Source: Verrucomicrobiota bacterium (lineage in GTDB: Bacteria; Verrucomicrobiota; Verrucomicrobiia; Opitutales; Seribacteraceae). From it: a DNA stretch of 64,000 bases. The notes under the pieces are model-generated. The model did no database searches. It was not told where the DNA came from and saw nothing but the letters and a program-made list of their open reading frames with translations. How positions within the stretch are numbered: position 1 is the first letter of the stretch; each line of letters begins with the position of its first letter. The stretch is taken from positions 1-64,000 of the forward strand of contig JAOLZO010000003.1 of the NCBI GenBank assembly GCA_028343845.1, written 5' to 3'. This document shows positions 38,937 through 51,728 of the stretch, piece after piece. The position numbers and the translations under genes are program-made.

Positions 38937-40058
38937 TCAGCCGCCTAGATAAGTGAGGGCTCGTGGAATCGGGAGGGAATAAAAGGCAAAGCGATCGATA
39001 CCCAGTTCGGCAAGGTTATCAGTTAATTTCCCACGAAGAGAATCAACGCTGTCCGGGCCAACGGAGGTATAAACGAGTGCCCATTCTTCCGTTAAGTGGT
39101 CTTTTCCTTCTTCAGCGTCAAGCATAACACCGAAATTTGTGCTCACACCCGGAGCACCTGCATCCAATACGGCATCATAAACCTCCTCATAATAATCTCT
39201 GGGAACGATACAATAAAGACCAACCAAGTTCTCGAGGAAAGTGGTCTTCAACGCACGGCTTTTACCGCTTTCGAGTGAAGTCCTCCATTCCTTGTCTCCT
39301 TTCAAGTCATCCAAGGCTGAGATTATCTGTTCCATGTTGGCTCCATGAGCTGAAGATGAAACTGTACTGGAAACATTAATCAATCCGGATCGAACTGGTA
39401 TGGAGTACATGAAACCTCTACCTGGTTCCGTAATTTTACCGGCACGGGCCATATCTCCAAATATCTCGTCCGCGTCTGCCTTTTCCACAACGCACCAGAC
39501 AAATTCTTTCTCCGGACCTTTGGTCATGCGAAGGAGCGGAATTTTGTCTCGAACGCCTCCGCCCTCGCCGAAAGTAATAGTCGGTCCGGGAGCGCCACCC
39601 TGCAAAGCTGCCTTGGCAATGTCATCTGCAATTCCCTTTTCACATATGCAACAAATAGCCTCAAGATCTTCCGGGCCAAACCCACTCCCGCCCTCAACTT
39701 CATCGTCGGCACTTACGGCAGTAGGAAAAGTTGAGGAAAAAATGGCATCGTTACAGCCAATCGTGAAAACAGCGCCCGAACCAACTCGGTCAAGATTACC
39801 CGCTTCAATAGCAGCATCCGTAACAGCATCGACTTTGGAATCGGGCACCAAGACTTGAAGAAGCAATTGCTCGGGAGCAGGGGGAGGAAACATTCGCTGA
39901 AGAAGACCACCTTCGCTCAGCATCGACCCGCGAGCCGTAACTTGAAAAAGACCAACAGCTCCAGCTGACGTAACGGAATCCGAAACTTTGGCAACGGTCT
40001 CCTTGGGCAGGATTAGATTCAACAAGGAAACTTGATTGCTTTTGATTTGATGGCTCAT
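38937..40058 (-). CDS. Three-domain P-II-like protein (tandem GlnB-type folds)
   Basis: 373 residues that divide into three ferredoxin/P-II-like units: about 10-107 (LLNLILPKETVAKVSDSV... ending GSGAVFTIGCNDAIFSS), 131-228 (AICCICEKGIADDIAKAAL... ending RGFMYSIPVRSGLIN) and 275-368 (LVGLYCIVPRDYYEEVYDAV... ending DRFAFYSLPIP). The linker 229-272 is polar and Ser-rich. Ordinary P-II proteins are trimers of one such unit that sense ATP/ADP and 2-oxoglutarate and bind transporters such as AmtB. Here one chain may supply all three units. Domain boundaries are my reading; nucleotide-site residues are not clear in each unit. It begins 1 nt after the stop of the DUF1538 gene, so it is coupled to it. 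Confidence 0.8.
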   Translation of the reverse strand: MSHQIKSNQVSLLNLILPKETVAKVSDSVTSAGAVGLFQVTARGSMLSEGGLLQRMFPPPAPEQLLLQVLVPDSKVDAVTDAAIEAGNLDRVGSGAVFTIGCNDAIFSSTFPTAVSADDEVEGGSGFGPEDLEAICCICEKGIADDIAKAALQGGAPGPTITFGEGGGVRDKIPLLRMTKGPEKEFVWCVVEKADADEIFGDMARAGKITEPGRGFMYSIPVRSGLINVSSTVSSSAHGANMEQIISALDDLKGDKEWRTSLESGKSRALKTTFLENLVGLYCIVPRDYYEEVYDAVLDAGAPGVSTNFGVMLDAEEGKDHLTEEWALVYTSVGPDSVDSLRGKLTDNLAELGIDRFAFYSLPIPRALTYLGG

Positions 40059-40059
40059 C

Positions 40060-42285
40060 TTATGCTGCCTCCTTTGCGGTTGAAGTGGCTTCGTCGTCAG
40101 GCTTCGGTTTCTTTCTTACGAGAAGGCCCACCGTAAGCACCGTAATGATCGGTCCCACGGACGCGAGGGAAAGAACGCCAAATCCATCAATGACTCCGGG
40201 TACGTTGACGCCAATACCAAGTCCCATTGCAAGAACGAGGGGGACGGTGATCGGACCGGTGGTAACGCCAGCGCTATCCCATCCGAAATTAACGAAATCC
40301 TCGCTCGAAATAAAGGTAAGTAACAAGAGACCCATGTAAGGCGGAATCAGAAGATACCAAAGATCGAGGTTGAAGGCGATTTTGGCAACGCCAGTACCTA
40401 TCCCGCATGCAACTCCGATTGCAACGGCTTGCATAAGGAGGCTTTTCTTGAATGCGCCAACGGTGATCTTCTCAACAGTTGACCCCAAGGCGTTTAAGGC
40501 TGGCTCAGCCAGAGTTGCACCATATCCGAGTATAAAAGCAAAAATGATGGCGATGAATTTCCCGCTTTCCCCAACGATAAGAGGTTCCTGAATACCACTT
40601 ACAAACTGCCAAGGTGTTGTGGGTGTAAAGGAAGTTACGATATTCGTACCCAATTGGTCACCCATCGGGGTCAGCCCAATCGCTATGCCCAAGCCAAAAA
40701 AGGTCATCCCGGTTACCGCGCAAACAATACCAATGATCAATTCATCCAAGTGCTTGGGCTTTTGCCTCAAGCCGAAGATGAGGAGTCCAAGGAGGATGAG
40801 CGAGAGTGGAGCAATGGCCCAGACCGCACCCTCTAAGGCACCCCTATTGGGCACTGGAAAAAAAGCATCTTCAAGCGAGTCGGCGGTTGTAAAGTAACTA
40901 GAAAACTTGGCCGCCAAATCCTGACCTATGGTTCTGTCGTCCTTGCCATCCCCATTCGCATCAGGCAACATCCAATTCTTTTCTGGGGGTACTGGGGTAG
41001 CATCGGCAACCTTCACGATGGTGAACGAACTTGGACCAGCATCTCCTTTGAAGGCAATTCCTGCTGGAGTTCTAGACCAGCTGGCATTGTCATCCGTGTT
41101 CATGAACTTAATTTTATGGTTTGCGGGCAAGGTGCCCTGCTCCCGAAACGCCACCAACTCTTCCTCTTCGAAGTTTTCCTCCTGTACCGAAGTGGAACTC
41201 GGTTGGTTTTTCTCGATAAGTGCGATGAAATCCTTGAGGTCGGTCGTCCCGCGTGATGCTTTATCAACACTGGGGGTTGGTTGAAGGATAGACGCTAAAA
41301 CAGTTGCACGGGAAGAATTGCTTTCAAGAAATTCAGCCACGGCCTTCTCTAATTTGCCTTTGTCAGCGGTTTGAATCTTTTTGCTAATGTAAGTTGAAGT
41401 GACTTTGTCTCCATCTTCATTACCTTGATTGAAGTTGGCGGCGCCATAATAGTCCTCGGATGTAAAAAGCTTAAAGCTGAGAGTCAGAACGGCTAGAATA
41501 GGAAAGAGGGACGCCAAGGTAACCACGCCAAACCCCGTGTTGCTCGATCCTCCGGTTGCCACGACACGGCAAACCCCAATCCCCAAAGCTAAGACGAGGG
41601 GCACGGTCACTGGACCCGTAGTCACGGCCCCACAATCCCAAGCCAAGCCCAAAACAGGGGCTAAAGTGCCAGAAGGTTCAAACTGGAAATAAAGTGTGAT
41701 GGCGGACAGGGTCAGCACTCCAATGTAAATAAAGGGTTTGAGCGACCAACTCTTGTAGAATCGCAAGACACCCAACATAACCGCTATCCCGACACCAATC
41801 CCAACATACAAAACCAAGGAACTTGAGTAGGGATTAAGCAGAGTGTAAAGCAAAGGAGCTTGATCCGGGCGAACGGCGGCACCGGCTTGCTGAAGGACTG
41901 CAATGGCCGGTTCGGCGAAGGTGGCGAAGATGCCGAGAACAAAACCAAACGCCAAGCTCATAGGCAGACAGGGAATGCCGAAAACCTTTTTTCTTGGCAG
42001 AGTCGAACCCAAGACTTCCCCAAGTGGCATTAATCCCAAACGGAGGCCCTCCATGAAAAAAGCCAAGCCTATGATGACGATAGAAATACCCACCCCAATC
42101 ATGGCGGCATAGACAATGGGCAACCCGAGAACCAGCAACTGGAACAATATCATGTAGGCGAGCACAAACCAGACGCACTGAATTTGCTCTACTATTTTGT
42201 CTTTGGAAAACGACAAAAGTATGCTCAGCTTTTGGCTAAAGCTAAGTTGAAGTTTTTTCTGGTCGGATGATTGTTCCGTGCTCAT
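40060..42285 (-). CDS. Membrane protein with duplicated DUF1538 domains and large insert
   Basis: 741 residues. Two homologous membrane halves, about 38-272 and 488-722, share FAEPAIAVLQ / LAEPALNALG, TTGPVTVPLVLALGIG / TTGPITVPLVLAMGLG and GFGVVTLASLFPILAVLT / GFGVLSLASVGPIITVLT. This matches the DUF1538 membrane family, probably transporters of unknown substrate. Between the halves lies a soluble segment of about 210 residues (275-485) with a calcium-loop-like DANGDGKDD at 442-450. The conserved TTGPxTVP elements in both halves suggest re-entrant or discontinuous helices of a transport site. It is co-transcribed with the P-II-like gene, which suggests control by a P-II-type sensor as with AmtB-GlnK. 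Substrate unknown. Confidence 0.85.
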   Translation of the reverse strand: MSTEQSSDQKKLQLSFSQKLSILLSFSKDKIVEQIQCVWFVLAYMILFQLLVLGLPIVYAAMIGVGISIVIIGLAFFMEGLRLGLMPLGEVLGSTLPRKKVFGIPCLPMSLAFGFVLGIFATFAEPAIAVLQQAGAAVRPDQAPLLYTLLNPYSSSLVLYVGIGVGIAVMLGVLRFYKSWSLKPFIYIGVLTLSAITLYFQFEPSGTLAPVLGLAWDCGAVTTGPVTVPLVLALGIGVCRVVATGGSSNTGFGVVTLASLFPILAVLTLSFKLFTSEDYYGAANFNQGNEDGDKVTSTYISKKIQTADKGKLEKAVAEFLESNSSRATVLASILQPTPSVDKASRGTTDLKDFIALIEKNQPSSTSVQEENFEEEELVAFREQGTLPANHKIKFMNTDDNASWSRTPAGIAFKGDAGPSSFTIVKVADATPVPPEKNWMLPDANGDGKDDRTIGQDLAAKFSSYFTTADSLEDAFFPVPNRGALEGAVWAIAPLSLILLGLLIFGLRQKPKHLDELIIGIVCAVTGMTFFGLGIAIGLTPMGDQLGTNIVTSFTPTTPWQFVSGIQEPLIVGESGKFIAIIFAFILGYGATLAEPALNALGSTVEKITVGAFKKSLLMQAVAIGVACGIGTGVAKIAFNLDLWYLLIPPYMGLLLLTFISSEDFVNFGWDSAGVTTGPITVPLVLAMGLGIGVNVPGVIDGFGVLSLASVGPIITVLTVGLLVRKKPKPDDEATSTAKEAA

Positions 42286-42372: not shown

Positions 42373-43689
42373 TCAGAGGCTCCAAGCTGCATTGGCCAAT
42401 GTCAGGGAAAGCTTGTTTGTTCCTGGTTTCAATTGGATTGGCACACTCCAAGTTACGCCAACCGTGCCCAGTGAAGCTGTGCCCACTACGAAAAATTTCC
42501 CCGGAGGCAAATTCTCCAGGGTTGCGGCTCCGTTTATGTCCGTTCTGACCCGATAGCCCTGCCCTGCCTCGACAATTTTCAGCAGCAAGGACCGTATGTT
42601 CTTTTGAACTTTTGGGTAAAGGAACGAATTTTTACGGGCTTTAGCCCACAGCTCTGCATAAGAATCGATCTTTTCGGCCGATGAAACGGTCCCCGAGTAT
42701 TCTTCGAGTTTAATGCCACCTACCCTCAAGACCTTCTCGATATCTTCATCGATTATAAAAAATTCGGTATAGAATGCCTCCTTGTTCTTTCCATTCAATG
42801 CCGTCACCACCGCATCGAACTGGAGGTTGCACCCACCAATGGGAAGAGGGGTTTCCTTGACCGCCACCTCGTCCAAGACAGGATCGTTCGATGGCGCAGA
42901 CAAATTCTTTGTGATCAACGATTCCACGCTGGGGGAAACCCGAAGGGGAGTAAACTTTTTGGAAGGATTGATTTCCAAAACGCTTATCCTTTCTTCCAAT
43001 GAATCGTTTCTCAGTCTCAAATCCTGAATCTCGTTGGATTTGATAAGGAGGTTACCCCTCAAGTTCTTGATTTCCGATTTGAGCCCAAGCAACTTAGTTT
43101 GGGGAGAGGGAGACTCGCCAATGGTCGTAACCGGGTCAGGAGTCACATAATCATTGCCTCCCTTCAAGCGGTTTACTTCGGAAACAAGATCCTTGTTCAA
43201 TTTGGTTAAGGAAGCAATCGTTCGGTCTTTGCGCTCGATGCTTTCGCGCAGCTTGGCCGCCTCTCGTTGCTGTGAAATCGCACTCTCCTCCAAGTTCGCA
43301 AGCGCTTTCTCCGCCTTGTAGGCCTCAAGCGACGCTTCGGGTGAGGCGGTGCCGACATCAGATACCAATCGGGCAACTGATGGCTCTACAAGACCCGCTG
43401 ACTTCTCGATTCCAGTCGAATGCAAATCAGCCTTCGATGAAACGGGCGGTTGTTGCAACTCCGTAGAGTCCGCACCGTCAAGAAAGGATTCCAGATTCTG
43501 GGAAACCCCCGAGCCGGCACTCTCGATCAAGGCGGAAAGACTGCCTGATTCGGCGTTTTCATCACCGTCATACACCGTTCCGTTCGCATCATGATCGGGT
43601 TCAGGTTCTTTGGAACCGCAACTACTAAGCAGGGCAACCGTAAGCGCCGTTGCGATTGAAGAGAAAAATGTGGGGGAACAGATTTTCAT
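42373..43689 (-). CDS. Coiled-coil lipoprotein of unknown function
   Basis: 438 residues. The signal ends in a lipobox (LLSSC, Cys24) followed by GSKEPEPDHD, so it is a lipoprotein. Residues about 120-250 are heptad-rich coiled coil in two stretches (KALANLEESAISQQREAAKLRE; LGLKSEIKNLRGNLLIKSN). The C-terminal 150 residues begin with a Cys (GGCNLQFDAVV), include a helical part and end in a small beta domain (YRVRTDINGAATLENLPPGKFFVVG...SVPIQLKPGTNKLSLTL) that resembles carboxypeptidase-regulatory/transthyretin-like folds. No enzyme motif. Divergent from the 24-repeat rod gene with 106 nt between, so shared regulation is possible. Confidence 0.8.
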   Translation of the reverse strand: MKICSPTFFSSIATALTVALLSSCGSKEPEPDHDANGTVYDGDENAESGSLSALIESAGSGVSQNLESFLDGADSTELQQPPVSSKADLHSTGIEKSAGLVEPSVARLVSDVGTASPEASLEAYKAEKALANLEESAISQQREAAKLRESIERKDRTIASLTKLNKDLVSEVNRLKGGNDYVTPDPVTTIGESPSPQTKLLGLKSEIKNLRGNLLIKSNEIQDLRLRNDSLEERISVLEINPSKKFTPLRVSPSVESLITKNLSAPSNDPVLDEVAVKETPLPIGGCNLQFDAVVTALNGKNKEAFYTEFFIIDEDIEKVLRVGGIKLEEYSGTVSSAEKIDSYAELWAKARKNSFLYPKVQKNIRSLLLKIVEAGQGYRVRTDINGAATLENLPPGKFFVVGTASLGTVGVTWSVPIQLKPGTNKLSLTLANAAWSL

Positions 43690-43795: not shown

Positions 43796-46390
43796 ATGTC
43801 TCAAGTATCCCCCGAGGAGGCTGAAATTCTGTTGCAAGAGAATCGTTTTTTGAAACAAACGATTCTCGCGCTTAGGGATGAGTTGGTTAAAAAAGATCAG
43901 CATGATGACTCCAGTCATCAAAAGAGCTTGATGGTTCTGACCAAGGAAAACTCCGCTTTGAAGGAAACGCTGGGGGAACTAAGAGCCGAACTCGAGGAGA
44001 ACTTGGCGAATTCTCAAGACGAGCTCCAAAAAGCGAGTCAAATCCACCTGAAAGAACAAAGACAACTCAAGGAATTGATCACAAGCCTGCGTAGCGGGTT
44101 GGAGGAGACGAAGAACAGAGCGCACGAAGAAGCCCAAAGCGCTTTGTCTACTTTTAACAAGGAAAACCTCGACCTCAAGAAAAGCATCGGAGAGTTGCGC
44201 AACGAAATCGATCGTAGGGAAATTGAGAAGGATGAGCTCGCCCAGAAAGCGAGGAGTTCGGCAAACCAAGAAATCGAACAACTCCGATCATCCTCGCAAA
44301 ATCTCCGGTCCCGCCTGGATGCAATGACCTTGGATCATGAAGCCGACCTGCAAAAGGTCCGATCTTCTTCAAAAACCGAAATCGATACCCTTAAGCAATC
44401 CATAGAAGCATTGCGCCAAGAACTTGATCATGCTCGAAACCTTCGGGATGATGCGGTACAAAAAGCTGTCTCCCAATCCTCGGTCGAGATTAGCGACCTC
44501 AAGGCAACCTTGTTCATGGCAAGGGAAAAGCTCGAAAGGTTAAAAGCTGCAAACGAGGACGTTGCCCAAAAGCTAACCAGCAAGCACGTGTCAGAGGTGA
44601 AATCGCTCAAGGAAACGATTGGCTCGCTCAGGGATGAGCTCGACCTCGCCTCCGCAAAGGAAGCGGATGCAGTTCAACGAACGAAAAGCAAGGCAAGCGA
44701 TGAAATTCGGCAGCTCAAGAAAGCCCTCTCTCAAACGAGAGAAAATTTGGACAGCTTTAAGATCCGTGAAGAAGAGCGGGTGCAAAAAGCCAAGGTATCG
44801 TCTGCCAAGGAAATTCGTTCTCTGAAATCAACCATTACCGAACTTCGTGAGGAGTTGGACCGTTCTTCCGTAGAGAAAGAAGAGGCCGTACAAAAAGAAC
44901 GATCCGTTGCCCATACGGAAATTCAAACACTTAAACATTCAGTTTCCGCCCTTAGGGAAAATATCGAAGCGGCCAAAGTTCGGGAGGAAGAGAAAATCCA
45001 AAAGGCCGTCGTTGCTTCTAATTCGGAAATTCGAACATTGAAGAATACCGTTTCGGAATTACGAGACGAACTCGAGCAGGCGGCGGCTCTAAAGGATCAA
45101 GCTGTGCAACTTGCCCAGTCGGCCTCTCAGGTTGAAATCAAGCAACTTAAGGAAACGCTTCTTCAGGTAAGACAAAACCTTGAAAACACCAAGGCCCGCC
45201 AAGAGGACCGCGTCCAACGGGCTGTTTCTGCAAAAAACGCACAAAACTCAAGTCTTCAGGAAACGATTAGCGAATTAAGGCAGGAATTGGACAAAAGCGC
45301 CATTGCTCTAGAGGAAGAGGTGCAAAGCGCCGTTTCGGCGGCCCATAAGGAAATCGAACAGCTCAAGAACTCCCTGACCTCAACGCGTGAACAGCTCGAT
45401 CAGGAAAGAGCTAGAAGCGAATCAGACGTTCAGCGCGCAACTCTCCGGTCCGAGAACGAAATTCGTACCCTGAAAGCACTCGCTCAGTCCCTCAGGGAGG
45501 AGCTCGACAGGGCGCAAGCCGAGGAGGAAAACAAGATCAGGGATGCTTATTCCTCGGCTCATGCGGAAAACAACCAGTTGAAAATTTCCCTGCAAAGCCT
45601 GAGGGAACAACTCGAGCAAACGAAAAATAGGCATGATGACCGCGTCCAAAGAGAATCGGTCAAATCCGCGTCAGAAAAGAAATCGCTGCATGACACCATT
45701 GAGAATCTGAGGAATGAATTGGAGGGGGCTCAGCATAGGGAGGCCGAAGGCATTCAGAAAATGGAAGCTCAGACGGCCAATGAAATCAAAACTCTCAAAA
45801 ACACACTCTCCTCGACTCGGGATAAAATAGATCAGATTCGCGCGGAAAAAAATGATTTGATTCAATTGGCCGCGGCCCAAAAGGAATCCGAAATCAATTC
45901 CCTCAAGCAAACTATTTCCGAAATGAGACAGGAAATCGATCGCAAGACCATCGAGAAGGAAGAAGCGGTGCAAAAAGCGTTGTCCATTTCGACAAAGGAA
46001 AACCAGCAATTGCGCAGTTCCATATCTGCCTTGCGGGACAAAGTGGAATTGTCTAGAAACCGAAAAGACGAAGCGGTGCAAAGAGCTGTCAACGAATCTG
46101 CTGCCGAAATTCGAACCCTGCGAGAAAACATCTCAAAACTAAGAAACGAATTGGATTCGGCTGAAATCTCACAACAGGAATCCGTACAGCAAGCCGTTGC
46201 TTCTCATCAGAACGAAATCAATCATTTCAAGCAAATGGTCAACGCCCTGAGAGATGAAATTGACAACGAGGGACATTTACGGGAGGAAAGCCTTCAAAAA
46301 GAAAAACAATTGAAAACCATGGAGTTCAAGGAATTACAAGAGACGATTATCGAACTTCGCTCCGAACTGGAAAAGACAAATGGAAGATAA
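43796..46390 (+). CDS. Rod-like protein of 24 in-register 36-residue helical repeats
   Basis: 864 residues, exactly 24 x 36. The LRxEL core of each unit recurs at 26 + 36n: LRDEL 26, LRAEL 62, LRSGL 98, LRNEI 134, LRSRL 170, LRQEL 206, AREKL 242, and the last, LRSEL, at 854, so there is no net shift from first to last unit. A unit reads roughly EEAVQKA-S-A-EI-LK-TIS-LR-ELD-A. Thirty-six residues make ten turns of an ideal helix (3.6 per turn), so the chain should form an almost straight helical bundle of about 130 nm. No signal peptide, membrane segment or globular domain, hence cytoplasmic. Sequences of units differ, so this is an old repeat. It overlaps the cyclase gene by 11 nt. Function unknown. 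Confidence 0.9.
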   Translation: MSQVSPEEAEILLQENRFLKQTILALRDELVKKDQHDDSSHQKSLMVLTKENSALKETLGELRAELEENLANSQDELQKASQIHLKEQRQLKELITSLRSGLEETKNRAHEEAQSALSTFNKENLDLKKSIGELRNEIDRREIEKDELAQKARSSANQEIEQLRSSSQNLRSRLDAMTLDHEADLQKVRSSSKTEIDTLKQSIEALRQELDHARNLRDDAVQKAVSQSSVEISDLKATLFMAREKLERLKAANEDVAQKLTSKHVSEVKSLKETIGSLRDELDLASAKEADAVQRTKSKASDEIRQLKKALSQTRENLDSFKIREEERVQKAKVSSAKEIRSLKSTITELREELDRSSVEKEEAVQKERSVAHTEIQTLKHSVSALRENIEAAKVREEEKIQKAVVASNSEIRTLKNTVSELRDELEQAAALKDQAVQLAQSASQVEIKQLKETLLQVRQNLENTKARQEDRVQRAVSAKNAQNSSLQETISELRQELDKSAIALEEEVQSAVSAAHKEIEQLKNSLTSTREQLDQERARSESDVQRATLRSENEIRTLKALAQSLREELDRAQAEEENKIRDAYSSAHAENNQLKISLQSLREQLEQTKNRHDDRVQRESVKSASEKKSLHDTIENLRNELEGAQHREAEGIQKMEAQTANEIKTLKNTLSSTRDKIDQIRAEKNDLIQLAAAQKESEINSLKQTISEMRQEIDRKTIEKEEAVQKALSISTKENQQLRSSISALRDKVELSRNRKDEAVQRAVNESAAEIRTLRENISKLRNELDSAEISQQESVQQAVASHQNEINHFKQMVNALRDEIDNEGHLREESLQKEKQLKTMEFKELQETIIELRSELEKTNGR

Positions 46391-48722
46391 GAACACATCC
46401 GAACAGAATAATCCCGACAACCCGAAGTCAAAACGAACTTCGAGGTTTTCGGATATGCTTTTGCAGGTCACCACCGATCTCGCCAAAACCAAAAGTCTCG
46501 ACGAGGCCCTGGAGGTACTCGTGAAGATAACCACTTCCACCATCGGTGCCGAGAGAGGAACCATTTTCTTGAACGACCCGGCTACCGGCGAGTTGTATTC
46601 TAGAATTGCCCAGGGGAATTTCAGGAGGGAAATTCGCATCCTCAACACCAAGGGTGTAGCCGGTTGGGCCTTCACCAAGAACGAAGGCGTTATCATTCAT
46701 GATGCCTATAAGGACGAAAGATTCAACAAAGCGGTAGACGTTCGTACCGGGTTTCGGACCAAAAGTATTCTCTGCGCCCCCTTGCGGACGGTCAACGGTG
46801 AGGAAATCGGGGTATCTCAAATCCTTAACAAGATTGACGGCGAATTCGAGCAGGACGACTTGGATATGCTGGAGGCAATGACCGAGCAGGCCGCCATAGC
46901 CATTCAAGGCAATATTATCGTTGAGCAAATCGAGGCCGCCCGAAAGCAGGAACTCGAGTTTCTTGACGTGGTCTCGCAGGTTTCATCCGAACTTGAACTC
47001 ACTCCCCTTCTCCAGAAGATCATTACCACGATTTCAACCATGCTCGACTGCGAGAGAGCCACTCTCTTCATCAACGATGAGAAAACGAATGAACTTTATA
47101 CGGAAGTCGGTGAAGGGTTGGATGAAAAATCAACCATTCGGATTCCCAATCACCTCGGCATATCCGGAACCGTTTTTACTTCCGGAAAAGCAGTCAACAT
47201 CCCTCATGCCTATGCAGACTTGAGGTTTAACCCATCCTTCGACAAGCAAACCGGTTTCTTCACCCGATCGATTCTCTGCATGCCGGTCTTCAGCAAGGCG
47301 GGAAAGACCATTGGGGTGAGTCAGGTCCTGAACAAAAGGGGCGGGTCCTTTAACGCCGAGGACGAGAAAAGGCTCGCCGCCTTCACATCCCAGATATCCA
47401 TGGGTATTGAGAACGCCAAGCTCTTTGATGACGTTCAAAGCCAAATGAACTACTCCCAGAGCATCCTCTCCAGCATGCACGACGCCGTTCTCACTTTTGA
47501 TGAGCATGGGACAGTCAAGACATGTAACCCTGCCGGTCTGCGCATTCTGAAAATTCCCCATGAATCGGCAATTCTCGAACAGTCGGCCTCCAGTTTGCTC
47601 GGTGGTCCGAACGAATGGCTCCTTCACAAGCTTGAAGCTGTTCAGGAAAACGAGGAATTTCTTGATGCAGAGCTTCAGATCGAGGGAGAAACCCTTTCGG
47701 TCAACGTCACTTTGACTCCCCTATTGGGTAAATCCGAAAAGCGGAAGCCTGAAAATCCGGATGGAGACTCCGGGCTCTCCTCCAAGCCAAACATAATCGG
47801 CGCGATGCTTATGATCGAAGACATCAGTTCCGAAAAGCGCATGAAGTCGACCATGTCCCGCTACATGGATCCCGAGTTGGCAGACCAGTTGATGACCGCA
47901 GGCGGGGATGACTCAGATATCATGGGGGGCAAGCAAAGCGTCGGAACGGTCTTGTTTTCGGATGTCAGAAGCTTCACTACCATAACCGAGGAATTGGGCG
48001 CGCAGGGAACCGTCAAGTTACTCAACGACTACTTCACCATTATGGTCGACTGTATCACGGACGAAGGAGGTATGCTGGACAAGTTCATCGGGGACGCGAT
48101 GATGTGCATATTCGGCACTCCCGTTCCGCACGAAGACGATCCGGATCGCGCCGTGCGAGCCGCCATCCGCATGATGACCGACCTCAAGGTCTTCAACGAC
48201 AAGAGGTCAACCGAAGGAAAGATGCCCATCGATCACGGAATGGGCATCAATACCGATTCCATCGTTTCGGGAAACATAGGATCACCCAAGAGAATGGACT
48301 ATACCGTTATTGGCGACGGTGTAAACTTGGCCGCCCGCATCGAGAGCGCCTGCAAGCAATACGGCGCTCATATTCTCATCAGCGAGTTCACCTACAAGGC
48401 GGTAAAGGCAACCTACAGGACGAGACAGGTCGATTACGTGATCGTCAAAGGGAAGACCGAACCAGTCGGGGTGTACGAGGTTCTCGATTTTCACGACGAC
48501 GAATCCTACCCGAACCTTGTCGAGGCTTTGGGTCTCTTCAACGACGGGTACCGCAGCTGGAACGATGGAAAGTGGGACCAGGCGACCAAGATTTTCAACT
48601 CCGTCAAGAAAATCAACCCGAACGACAAAGCCGCCCAACTCTACTTGGATCGTTGCAGTTACATGAAGAAAAATCCACCCAAAGGCGATTGGGACGGGGT
48701 TTGGGTTATGACATCCAAGTAG
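46380..48722 (+). CDS. GAF-GAF-PAS class III adenylate cyclase (CyaB1-like)
   Basis: 780 residues in the layout of cyanobacterial CyaB1/CyaB2: GAF-A (about 25-185), GAF-B (about 200-350), PAS (about 358-485), class III cyclase (about 515-700), and a TPR-like helical tail (about 710-765). Both GAF units end with NKFDE-like motifs (NKIDGEFEQDD; NKRGGSFNAEDE), which in that family mark cyclic-nucleotide-binding GAFs. Catalytic residues are complete: metal Asp528 (FSDVRSF) and Asp572 (FIGDAM), Lys568 and Asp640 (RMDYTVIG) for adenine, Asn649 and Arg653 (NLAAR) for the transition state. So it should make cAMP, with possible positive feedback. No membrane segment. It overlaps the rod gene by 11 nt and is followed 22 nt later by a TPR gene. 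Confidence 0.95.
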   Translation: MEDKNTSEQNNPDNPKSKRTSRFSDMLLQVTTDLAKTKSLDEALEVLVKITTSTIGAERGTIFLNDPATGELYSRIAQGNFRREIRILNTKGVAGWAFTKNEGVIIHDAYKDERFNKAVDVRTGFRTKSILCAPLRTVNGEEIGVSQILNKIDGEFEQDDLDMLEAMTEQAAIAIQGNIIVEQIEAARKQELEFLDVVSQVSSELELTPLLQKIITTISTMLDCERATLFINDEKTNELYTEVGEGLDEKSTIRIPNHLGISGTVFTSGKAVNIPHAYADLRFNPSFDKQTGFFTRSILCMPVFSKAGKTIGVSQVLNKRGGSFNAEDEKRLAAFTSQISMGIENAKLFDDVQSQMNYSQSILSSMHDAVLTFDEHGTVKTCNPAGLRILKIPHESAILEQSASSLLGGPNEWLLHKLEAVQENEEFLDAELQIEGETLSVNVTLTPLLGKSEKRKPENPDGDSGLSSKPNIIGAMLMIEDISSEKRMKSTMSRYMDPELADQLMTAGGDDSDIMGGKQSVGTVLFSDVRSFTTITEELGAQGTVKLLNDYFTIMVDCITDEGGMLDKFIGDAMMCIFGTPVPHEDDPDRAVRAAIRMMTDLKVFNDKRSTEGKMPIDHGMGINTDSIVSGNIGSPKRMDYTVIGDGVNLAARIESACKQYGAHILISEFTYKAVKATYRTRQVDYVIVKGKTEPVGVYEVLDFHDDESYPNLVEALGLFNDGYRSWNDGKWDQATKIFNSVKKINPNDKAAQLYLDRCSYMKKNPPKGDWDGVWVMTSK

Positions 48723-48744: not shown

Positions 48745-50373
48745 ATGAACGCCAAAGCGCACCTCGAGGAGGCGATTGCCCTCAACCCTGAATATGCAGA
48801 GGCCTATTATAAGTTGGGTTTGCTTCTCAAGGAAGAAAACGATCTGGACCACGCTCTTGAGCACTTCAACAAAGCGGTTTCCCTCAACCCTGAGTATGCC
48901 GAAGCACAATGCGAACTAGCGATTGCCCTGTCCTCCAAAGAAGACTTCGAAACGGCCCGGAATCATTTTCTCAACGCGTTGGAAATAAACCCGAACTATG
49001 CAGACGCGTATTTTCACTATGCCCTTCTTCTCGTCGAACTGAATGATGTTGAAGAAGCCAAAAACAATTTCGACAAAGTAACCGAGATCAATCAGAACTA
49101 CGCTCCTGCGTACTTCCACAAAGCAAGGTTGCTGACAAATGCCGATGACTTCGAAAACGCCCGAAAAAACTACGAAACGGCGATCGACATCGATCAGGAG
49201 TTTGCCGAAGCCCAGTACTACATGGGTAAACTTCTTTCGGGTGGCATAGCCACGGACAAGGAAGGCACTCTGGTCGACAGGACCAACCTGCCGGAAGCCA
49301 AGGAACATTTCTTGAAAGTACTGAAAATCGAGCCCAACCACATCAAGGCTCATTATAACTTAGCGAAGATTCTCTCGATCCAGGAGGATTACGGCGAGGC
49401 AAAGAAATACCTTTTGAAAGCTCTGCAGATAGACGAATCTTATTCCAAGGTGCACTATCTGCTGGCTCATGTTCACGCCAAATGCGAAGAACGGGCAAAG
49501 GCCAAGGAACATTTCCAGCTTTCCATTGATCACTTTACGGAAAATGCATTGGCCCATTTTAGATTGGGGGTCCTGCTCTTTGAGGAAGGGAATCTGGAGA
49601 AAGCCGCCGAACACCTCAGGCAATCCGTAACGATCGACGCAAACCATTCCGAAGCCAACTTTTATTTGGCCATGATTCTGCGCGATGACGATGATCCAAA
49701 TTTAGCCAAGAAGCATTTCTTTCGATCCCTTGACATAAACCCGGACTATGCCCTCGCCTACTATGAGCTGGCCCATCACAGTGAGAAAAACGGGGATATC
49801 AATGAAGCCAAGATTCATTTCCAAAAGGCTACCGACATCGACCAGAATTTCGTGGCGGCCTACTTTAACTTGGCCCGGATATTAACAAATCCGTCCGAAT
49901 ATGACCAAGCAATCAGGAACTATGAGACCGCATTGGAAATCGATCCGGATTTCGCCGAATGTCATTATTGGTTCTCGAAGATTCTCATTTCCGGAGAAAA
50001 ACTGGAACCTGACGGCACGCTGATAAAGAAACATGATCCGGAAAGAGCCGAGCGACATTTGCGCAAAGCCATCAAGATCAACCCAAAGTTTTGCAAGGCC
50101 TTCTACCGGCTAGGTCTTCTTCTCAAGGATTCGGGGCATTACGTCGAAGCATCCGAAGCTCTTGGCAAGGCCATCAAGATCAACCCAAAGTTTGCAGAAG
50201 CGCACTACCATCTGGCCGTCTTGCTCATGGACAAAAATGCGCGAAGGGCATTGATGGCAAAACCGCCTGCCAAAACCCGAAAAGCCCCTGCCAAGAAAAA
50301 GAAACCTCCAGCGAAAAAGCCTGCCACTGCGAGAAGGAAAAAAACCACGAGTAGCCAAAAGAAGGCTCGATAG
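48745..50373 (+). CDS. TPR protein with Lys/Ala/Pro-rich basic tail
   Basis: 542 residues, almost entirely 34-residue tetratricopeptide repeats (about 14; ALEHFNKAVSLNPEYAEAQCELAIAL, ARNHFLNALEINPNYADAYFHYALLL and so on). The last 38 residues or so are rich in Lys, Ala and Pro (KPPAKTRKAPAKKKKPPAKK...RRKK), as in histone H1-like bacterial proteins, so the tail might bind DNA, RNA or an acidic partner. Two insertions around GGIATDKEGTLVDRTN and SGEKLEPDGTLIKKHD fall in equivalent positions and mark an internal duplication of a larger block. No signal peptide. Third gene of the rod-cyclase-TPR-TPR operon. Confidence 0.92.
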   Translation: MNAKAHLEEAIALNPEYAEAYYKLGLLLKEENDLDHALEHFNKAVSLNPEYAEAQCELAIALSSKEDFETARNHFLNALEINPNYADAYFHYALLLVELNDVEEAKNNFDKVTEINQNYAPAYFHKARLLTNADDFENARKNYETAIDIDQEFAEAQYYMGKLLSGGIATDKEGTLVDRTNLPEAKEHFLKVLKIEPNHIKAHYNLAKILSIQEDYGEAKKYLLKALQIDESYSKVHYLLAHVHAKCEERAKAKEHFQLSIDHFTENALAHFRLGVLLFEEGNLEKAAEHLRQSVTIDANHSEANFYLAMILRDDDDPNLAKKHFFRSLDINPDYALAYYELAHHSEKNGDINEAKIHFQKATDIDQNFVAAYFNLARILTNPSEYDQAIRNYETALEIDPDFAECHYWFSKILISGEKLEPDGTLIKKHDPERAERHLRKAIKINPKFCKAFYRLGLLLKDSGHYVEASEALGKAIKINPKFAEAHYHLAVLLMDKNARRALMAKPPAKTRKAPAKKKKPPAKKPATARRKKTTSSQKKAR

Positions 50374-50378
50374 ACTTC

Positions 50379-51728
50379 TTGGACGGACTAACTGCAGAAG
50401 CCTTAGGGCACTTGGAAAAGGCTTTGGAATGCGATCCGAATCATGCCCCTGCCCTCATCGCGCTAGGAGAGGTTTATCTCAGCAAAAGAGAATTCGTCAA
50501 GCTTGACGCCCTGTTGAAAGAAGCTTTGGCCCTCCGGCAAGACCAACCTGAGGTTTTCTTTCTTCAAGCAAGGTTTCTGCACCAGCAAAAGGAGTATGAC
50601 GGTGCATCCGTTGCCATCGAGCGGGCAATCAATCTGGATGAGCTACAGTCCGAGTATTTCCACTTGGCCGCCGAGATTGCGGAGGAAAGTGAACGGCCAA
50701 ACGAAAGGCAATTTTTTCTTGAAAGGCTTATCGATCTGAAACCACTGGACGGAAACGCCCATTATGAATTGGGCAAACTACTCCACCATCCGGATGACTT
50801 TGAACGCGTAAAGCTTCTTTTGGAAATTTCCATTGATTTACTTCCGCGGGATGCGAGGCCTTTGCTTTTATTGGCACAGCATCTTTACGCTGGAGAAAAA
50901 TCATTGGCAGACGGAACGGTGCGTATCGAATCGGATCCTGGTTATGCAAAGCAGTTGTTGGGAAAGCTTCTTTCCATCGATCCGAAAGATAGCCGGTCAA
51001 AGTTATTACTTGCTCAAATCGAACTGGAAAATGATTCGGCGCAGGTTGCCGAGGCGCTCTACATGGAAGCGCTCGCGGACAAAAAAACACAGGGTGAAGC
51101 GGCCTATCGACTTGGATTGATTTGGGAAGAAAAAGGGGACGCGAAAAATTCAGTCAAATTTTACAAAGTAGCAATGGAAACAGATGAATGGCTTGCCTTG
51201 GCGGAATTTCGCTTGGGGCTTCTTTTGCTTGCAGAAGGCAAACGCAAGCAAGCGGAAAAACATTTTAAACAATGCTTGTCCGCGCTGAAAGAAAAGGCTG
51301 ACGCTTTGGCTAAATCCAAAGAACTGCACTTGAACAAGTTGAGGTTTCATGAGTCCAGAAAGGAGTTGGAATCGTTGCAATCGATCAGGAAATTCACCGC
51401 CGAAGCTTATTTCGGAATATACAAATGCAACCATGAATCGCACTTGGAAGAAAAGGTTAACCAGTACCTTGACAAAGCCATTACTCTATTCCCGCATTAT
51501 CCTGAGGCGAACTATGAAAAGGGCCTATTCTTTCTTGCTAACCAAGACACTGAAAATGCAAACGCCCGATTTGTTAAGGCGGTGGAGCACGATTGGAATC
51601 ATTGGGCTTCGCACATGGAGTTAGGCAAAATCGCAAAAGACAATGGCGATTGGCAAAAAGCCGACATGCATTTCAAAATCGTTCTGGACCTTGATCCCAA
51701 AAACAAGGTTGCGAAGAAATTATTATAG
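50379..51728 (+). CDS. TPR protein
   Basis: 449 residues with TTG start 5 nt after the previous gene's stop. Tetratricopeptide helices run through the chain (LGHLEKALECDPNHAPALIALGEVY near the start; ADMHFKIVLDLDPKNKVAKKLL at the end), less regular in the middle. A segment AGEKSLADGTVRIESDPGYAK parallels the insertions of the preceding TPR protein, so the two share ancestry. No signal peptide or catalytic domain. Likely a scaffold acting with the upstream cyclase and rod proteins; this is inference from operon position. Confidence 0.85.
   Translation: MDGLTAEALGHLEKALECDPNHAPALIALGEVYLSKREFVKLDALLKEALALRQDQPEVFFLQARFLHQQKEYDGASVAIERAINLDELQSEYFHLAAEIAEESERPNERQFFLERLIDLKPLDGNAHYELGKLLHHPDDFERVKLLLEISIDLLPRDARPLLLLAQHLYAGEKSLADGTVRIESDPGYAKQLLGKLLSIDPKDSRSKLLLAQIELENDSAQVAEALYMEALADKKTQGEAAYRLGLIWEEKGDAKNSVKFYKVAMETDEWLALAEFRLGLLLLAEGKRKQAEKHFKQCLSALKEKADALAKSKELHLNKLRFHESRKELESLQSIRKFTAEAYFGIYKCNHESHLEEKVNQYLDKAITLFPHYPEANYEKGLFFLANQDTENANARFVKAVEHDWNHWASHMELGKIAKDNGDWQKADMHFKIVLDLDPKNKVAKKLL

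Follow-up and report, generated by a model that had tools for sequence, protein, structure and literature searches.

The window, that is, the whole stretch of 64,000 nucleotides analysed here, carries a gene for a protein composed wholly of 36-residue units, which we call the rod. The strongest functional clue to the rod is the adenylate cyclase gene that overlaps it, a link absent from the first-pass annotation of this DNA. That the rod is partnered with this cyclase we regard as close to certain. The best overall explanation, towards which we lean slightly, is that it serves as a dedicated cyclase scaffold or tether whose rods pack by whole units. The central features are as follows.

43796..46390, plus strand: rod protein gene, 864 aa, 24 units of 36 residues (open reading frame and periodicity analysis)
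46380..46390, plus strand: 11-nt overlap of the rod stop and the cyclase start (sequence and open reading frames)
46380..48722, plus strand: GAF-GAF-PAS-class III adenylate cyclase with a C-terminal extension (Pfam, PDB relatives, catalytic residues)

The length of the rod, 864 aa, is exactly 24 x 36. The unit frame opens at the initiator Met (phase 1), the stop codon follows phase 36, and the number of internal indels is 0. When each unit was scored with a profile built without that unit and its neighbours, 24/24 fell exactly in phase. Unit positions 26-30 read L-R-x-E-L, with R at position 27 in 24/24 units. Both the 24 perfectly phased repeats and the constant phase of the LRxEL element described in the first-pass annotation are thus borne out. 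The annotation had also proposed a periodicity analysis; here self-identity reached 0.28-0.375 at lags 36, 72, 108, 144, 180 and 216, against a maximum of 0.135 in composition shuffles (n=2000) and of 0.168 in shuffles keeping the hydrophobic/polar pattern (n=2000). Chance or composition as the source of the periodicity is ruled out by both sets. No tandem repeat was detectable in the rod gene at the DNA level, which rules out a recent DNA tandem array and shows that the units are old and diverged. Lags 72, 144 and 216 were stronger than 36, 108 and 180, revealing a 72-residue odd/even super-repeat that the annotation did not contain. Identity between units of the same parity was 0.356 vs 0.307 for opposite parity (permutation p about 0.0005), and the odd/even difference was significant in all nine 24-unit orthologues (p < 0.005).

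The hydrophobic spectrum of the window rod contains one sharp peak only, at 3.600 residues per turn, inside the range of 3.5-3.67 for the core stripe of a coiled coil, and the period was 3.592-3.600 in rods of other lineages (six proteins, several lineages). An undistorted helix has 3.63 residues per turn (PMC9858780). The rod departs from this by -0.03, no more than hendecads do, and little supercoil is therefore expected; given the 3.600 stripe, every unit faces the same way. The a/d/h core lies at unit positions 5, 8, 12, 16, 19, 23, 26, 30, 33 and (37), with spacings 3-4-4-3-4-3-4-3-4-4, which equal two heptads and two hendecads per unit; small residues (A, S) occupy the hendecad positions 8 and 12. 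On the side opposite the core face, position 35 is often hydrophobic (I, V, F, Y, A) in many lineages and may form a lateral docking knob every 36 residues.

AlphaFold2 modelled a 7-unit relative (L053) as one uninterrupted helix, residues 6-251, with pLDDT 92. For the window rod, which has one proline in 864 residues, it gave helices 6-401, 486-616 and 627-857 with a mean pLDDT of 70 and a low-confidence gap at 401-486. The residues of this gap cover canonical units and keep the unit pattern, and the gap probably reflects a modelling artefact that comes with a single helix of such length. Thus a continuous long helix free of breakers is supported by the L053 model and the single proline, the window model being less certain. 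These runs were made on monomers only, and the oligomer state lies outside their reach. The nearly straight, little-supercoiled long helix foreseen in the first-pass annotation agrees with the 3.600 period and the L053 model, and we consider a helical rod very probable.

How strictly is the unit kept outside the window? To find further rods, a position profile of the 36-residue unit was scanned phase-blind over all open frames, since gapped pairwise alignment of rods with unequal unit number left scattered gaps. A search with the window cyclase in species genomes returned 80 loci, from Opitutales, other Verrucomicrobiota, Neomarinimicrobiota, Margulisiibacteriota, UBP8, Planctomycetota and several Pseudomonadota classes; these labels come from MAGs, and misbinned contigs may be included. 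A rod lay directly upstream of essentially every orthologous cyclase (~49% identity or more) with enough upstream sequence, and upstream rods accompany cyclase relatives in at least six phylum-level lineages. The 70 rods contain 884 unit-to-unit spacings, of which 0/884 are off phase; all are multiples of 36, and the exact tiling persists across very long divergence. The cross-lineage unit consensus is approximately K-E-E-x-V-Q-x-A-V-x(5)-E-I-x-Q-L-K-x-T-V-x-A-L-R-D-E-L-E-x(5), with R27 present at 96%, and glycine is often found at position 36 in some lineages. Start and stop codons fall within a few residues of a unit border in nearly all rods.

Unit number varies. In the window's family, 32 complete rods have 16, 18, 20, 22 or 24 units, always an even number; outside this family it ranges from 3-4 to 15, odd and even (6 in a Methylocystaceae relative, L089:7304-7954), with one relative of 24 units in another Opitutales family. 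Total length thus differs more than fivefold while unit length is constant. The strong selection for spacing claimed in the first-pass annotation is well supported by the absence of off-phase spacings, and selection acts on spacing. The "ruler" proposed there is not supported if it means a conserved total length, because total length varies while unit length never changes, and a fixed-length ruler was rejected as unlikely. A "filament or scaffold", also suggested there, is favoured as a possible role.

Eight 24-unit orthologues align to the window rod over 864 residues with zero gaps at 41-68% identity. Neighbouring proteins served for comparison.

42373..43689, minus strand: divergent lipoprotein-like protein with a coiled-coil stretch (position conserved in Opitutales only; indel control)
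48745..50373, plus strand: well-conserved TPR protein downstream of the cyclase (Pfam, locus comparison)
50379..51728, plus strand: second TPR-containing protein, fast evolving, ~22-60% identity (Pfam, locus comparison)

The lipoprotein-like control had 31 indels per 1000 aligned residues at a mean identity of 45%, and the TPR protein directly downstream of the cyclase was nearly indel-free as well. Packed repeats such as TPR normally keep a strict unit length; for a coiled coil this is unusual. Among the nine 24-unit orthologues, units 2-22 have per-unit identities of 0.37-0.57, and the ends of the rod are more conserved.

43796..43903, plus strand: unit 1, conserved N-terminal cap (ENRFLKQTI..LR), per-unit identity 0.63
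46172..46387, plus strand: units 23-24, conserved C-terminal cap (INHFK...TMEFKELQETIIELRSELE), identity 0.66 and 0.74, highest of all

Such conservation of end units is as expected if the rod ends dock to something.

The enzyme encoded by the overlapping gene has the domain order GAF-GAF-PAS-CHD of the CyaB1/CyaB2 type (Pfam, with a weak PAS match, and PDB matches). Among solved structures, those closest to it are the CyaB GAF tandem 1ykd, CyaB catalytic domains and tandem-GAF phosphodiesterases. The catalytic residues D528, D572, K568, T642, N649 and R653 are invariant in 100 cyclase sequences, and the two metal Asp, the adenine Lys/Thr and the Asn/Arg transition-state pair are all present; the Thr points to class IIIb. 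GAF NK..F..D motifs are likewise present, and they are invariant or nearly so in the same number of sequences. Because catalytic residues and GAF motifs are both kept, the predicted enzyme is expected to be an active adenylate cyclase. The gene overlap likely gives translational coupling.

The association of rod and cyclase was followed with a 108-position rod profile together with the cyclase as queries. Rod and cyclase occurred in the same 5/241 Verrucomicrobiota genomes and the same 24/299 Pseudomonadota genomes, and were adjacent in all positive genomes except G542, in which a contig break separates them. In 18 further genomes reached from the loci, the rod profile matched solely beside the cyclase. 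Among incomplete genomes of the same family, the seven without a rod match are also without the cyclase, and the two with a rod have it. Related genomes are not independent and raw hypergeometric values overstate the co-occurrence; the pattern itself is without exception over two phyla. Upstream of more distant cyclases (37-44% identity; L090, L095, L097-L100) the phase-blind scan found no rod. One exceptional cyclase (L088:5946-7382) has no GAF-A domain (main match from residue 282) and no rod on its locus, which hints at a link between the rod and the complete tandem-GAF form.

A natural fusion joins the two partners. In a single MAG gene (L109:2725-5433; G342:C36:80224-82932), one 903-aa frame encodes two good rod units, a degenerate third unit off phase by 2, a proline-rich and probably flexible linker, and then the cyclase. 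Its spacing of 38 is the only off-phase unit spacing seen. The fusion suggests that the C-terminal end of the rod belongs near the cyclase N-terminus.

No gene besides rod and cyclase was common to all lineages at the compared loci. A common third partner was ruled out, since cNMP-binding protein, PilZ, GGDEF, flagellin, DUF6901 and redoxin neighbours are lineage-specific. TPR genes follow the cyclase in Opitutales and Neomarinimicrobiota, and as a rule not elsewhere. Positions 38937-42285 of the window encode a double DUF1538 membrane protein and a 373-aa protein without a Pfam match, a pair kept beside the rod operon in Opitutales. In Mariprofundia-like loci (L118:4386-5327, L086) a cNMP-binding-domain protein directly upstream of the rod-cyclase pair is a candidate cAMP effector. 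In Neomarinimicrobiota (L053, L054, L057, L058, L091) a conserved protein of ~200-245 aa is encoded directly upstream of the rod; the L053 protein was compared with Pfam and gave no match.

The invariance of the unit poses a clean puzzle, and we can ask: What forbids any other indel? An in-register homodimer would not, because both chains carry it. Since such a dimer tolerates indels, something that reads the repeat as a lattice is indicated, either a partner that is periodic or adjacent rods offset by whole units. We propose that the rod would be a cytoplasmic all-repeat alpha-helical protein whose only consistent partner is the cyclase from the overlapping gene. The chains may form coiled-coil rods of ~5.35 nm per unit, ~128 nm for the window rod, which would pair or pack with adjacent rods at whole-unit offsets; such packing would forbid insertions other than multiples of 36. 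As a scaffold or tether, the rod would hold the cyclase dimer, with the C-terminal rod cap as the most likely contact, and would thereby cluster cAMP production or fix where it takes place. The conservation of end units and the fusion favour a scaffold or tether holding and spacing the cyclase. Together with packing by whole units, this model has in our opinion an even chance of being right.

Most 24-unit Opitutales orthologues show repulsion at the charge pair 29-34' both in register and at even shifts, but attraction at odd shifts. This pattern would fit a one-unit stagger and is suggestive only; the odd/even alternation of 72 residues in the window's family would suit such a stagger as well. 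The signal is limited to Opitutales rods; in short rods in-register pairing is attractive instead. A charge score over the whole protein did not favour staggers of 36n, the best being 36n +/- 5, as for in-register g-e' pairs. As filament subunits with large overlap, rods of 3-5 units (~16-27 nm) seem too short, which counts against the packing model. An extended version, in which whole-unit-staggered rods would polymerise or bundle into a regular lattice displaying cyclase dimers at fixed spacing as a cAMP-signalling filament, is put forward only tentatively.

The rod may instead be an in-register parallel dimeric stalk that only spaces the cyclase from an anchor at its other end, with no lateral assembly. 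The high conservation of the end units would suit this, as would the fusion of rod C-terminus to cyclase N-terminus. In-register attraction is seen for the g-e' pairs E15-K20' and 2-7', and the best overall charge stagger, 5 residues, is typical of in-register parallel dimers. However, a homodimer of this kind tolerates indels and leaves the 0/884 off-phase spacings unexplained, a length from 3-4 to 24 units is odd for a spacer, and in most 24-unit Opitutales rods an in-register arrangement makes pair 29-34' repulsive. On the whole we find the stalk rather doubtful.

Regulation in trans appears unlikely, and more so than the stalk. Here the rod cap would bind the N-terminal helix or GAF-A of the cyclase and switch it like a signalling helix on a separate subunit, the repeats serving mainly for oligomerisation or for sensing a mechanical or crowding state. 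The obligate pairing, the tight operon with its 11-nt overlap and the L088 cyclase, which lacks both GAF-A and a rod, would agree with it, and related signalling enzymes have selected coiled-coil linker lengths, for example the multiples of seven in PadC (PMC9587094). Known signalling-helix linkers, however, are short and fused in cis and have no need of up to 24 perfect units, and the natural fusion has a proline-rich, probably flexible linker at the junction.

Antiparallel hairpins, in which 36-residue helices would fold back in 72-residue pairs to form an alpha-helical stack, might explain the 72-residue super-repeat and even unit numbers in Opitutales, the position-36 glycine of some lineages and the gap in the AlphaFold2 model of the 864-aa rod. 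This is very improbable, because the 7-unit rod, from a lineage related to glycine-containing ones, was predicted as an unbroken helix (6-251, pLDDT 92), the hydrophobic stripe of 3.600 crosses unit borders without a break, a single proline occurs in 864 residues, and odd unit numbers exist. An ordinary coiled coil adjoining the cyclase without functional link, with which the weak matches of generic coiled-coil profiles (SMC, others; below cut-offs) would agree, can practically be dismissed in view of the perfect co-occurrence and adjacency across phyla without another common neighbour, and of the natural fusion.

Is the rod a member of a family already described? No Pfam or NCBIfam model scored above its cut-off and no PDB sequence matched, so membership in a known family was rejected; PHROGs gave one weak match only, to an unknown, and no report of the rod family was found in open-licence papers. 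SMC/Rad50 was rejected as well: the best NCBIfam SMC score was 45 against a cut-off of 567, in the coiled-coil part only, and no head domain was present. For CyaB1/B2 we know of no dedicated rod gene described. The partner cyclase resembles Anabaena CyaB1/CyaB2 in its GAF-GAF-PAS-class III order and NK..F..D(E) motifs, and 1ykd is among its best PDB matches (PMC4411481).

The actinobacterial DivIVA-like cytoskeletal proteins FilP and Scy are long bacterial rods of variable length, with hendecad periodicity near the undistorted helix and an alanine-rich core (PMC9858780). The rod described here is likewise long, nearly undistorted and variable in length. FilP and Scy, by contrast, are proteins of actinobacteria that function in polar growth and division and bear a DivIVA-like motif at the N-terminus; whole-protein Pfam and NCBIfam scans found no such motif in our rod, which differs further by the lack of a head domain, the strict 36-residue unit of mixed heptads and hendecads and the adenylate cyclase partner. 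Linkers of the phytochrome diguanylate cyclase PadC have selected lengths that differ by multiples of seven (PMC9587094), and in both systems helix length beside a cyclic-nucleotide-type enzyme is selected in periodic steps. PadC linkers are short and in cis with steps of 7, whereas the rod is a separate protein with steps of 36 or 72.

Constant-length, long-period coiled-coil units are also found in SF-assemblin, tropomyosin and myosin rods, where the strict period is tied to axial packing or to a periodic partner. These rods differ in unit length and are eukaryotic. The parts of our system are thus of known kinds, a coiled-coil rod and a tandem-GAF cyclase; no description appears to exist of the unit, of its invariance or of the obligate cassette.

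The usual picture of bacterial cAMP is that of a diffusible signal to which no dedicated scaffolds belong. A two-gene cassette of cyclase and modular rod, kept in register over several phyla while the number of units is free to vary, would clearly show physical organisation of a bacterial cyclase, and the rod looks like a scaffold for bacterial cAMP signalling that has so far not been described. With almost no supercoil and an adjustable length, the 36-residue unit is a natural coiled-coil module that is of use to coiled-coil theory as well as to protein design. If the cAMP-signalling filament proves true, it would represent a bacterial second-messenger organelle that is built of a single modular repeat and has spread, as a two-gene cassette, across several phyla.
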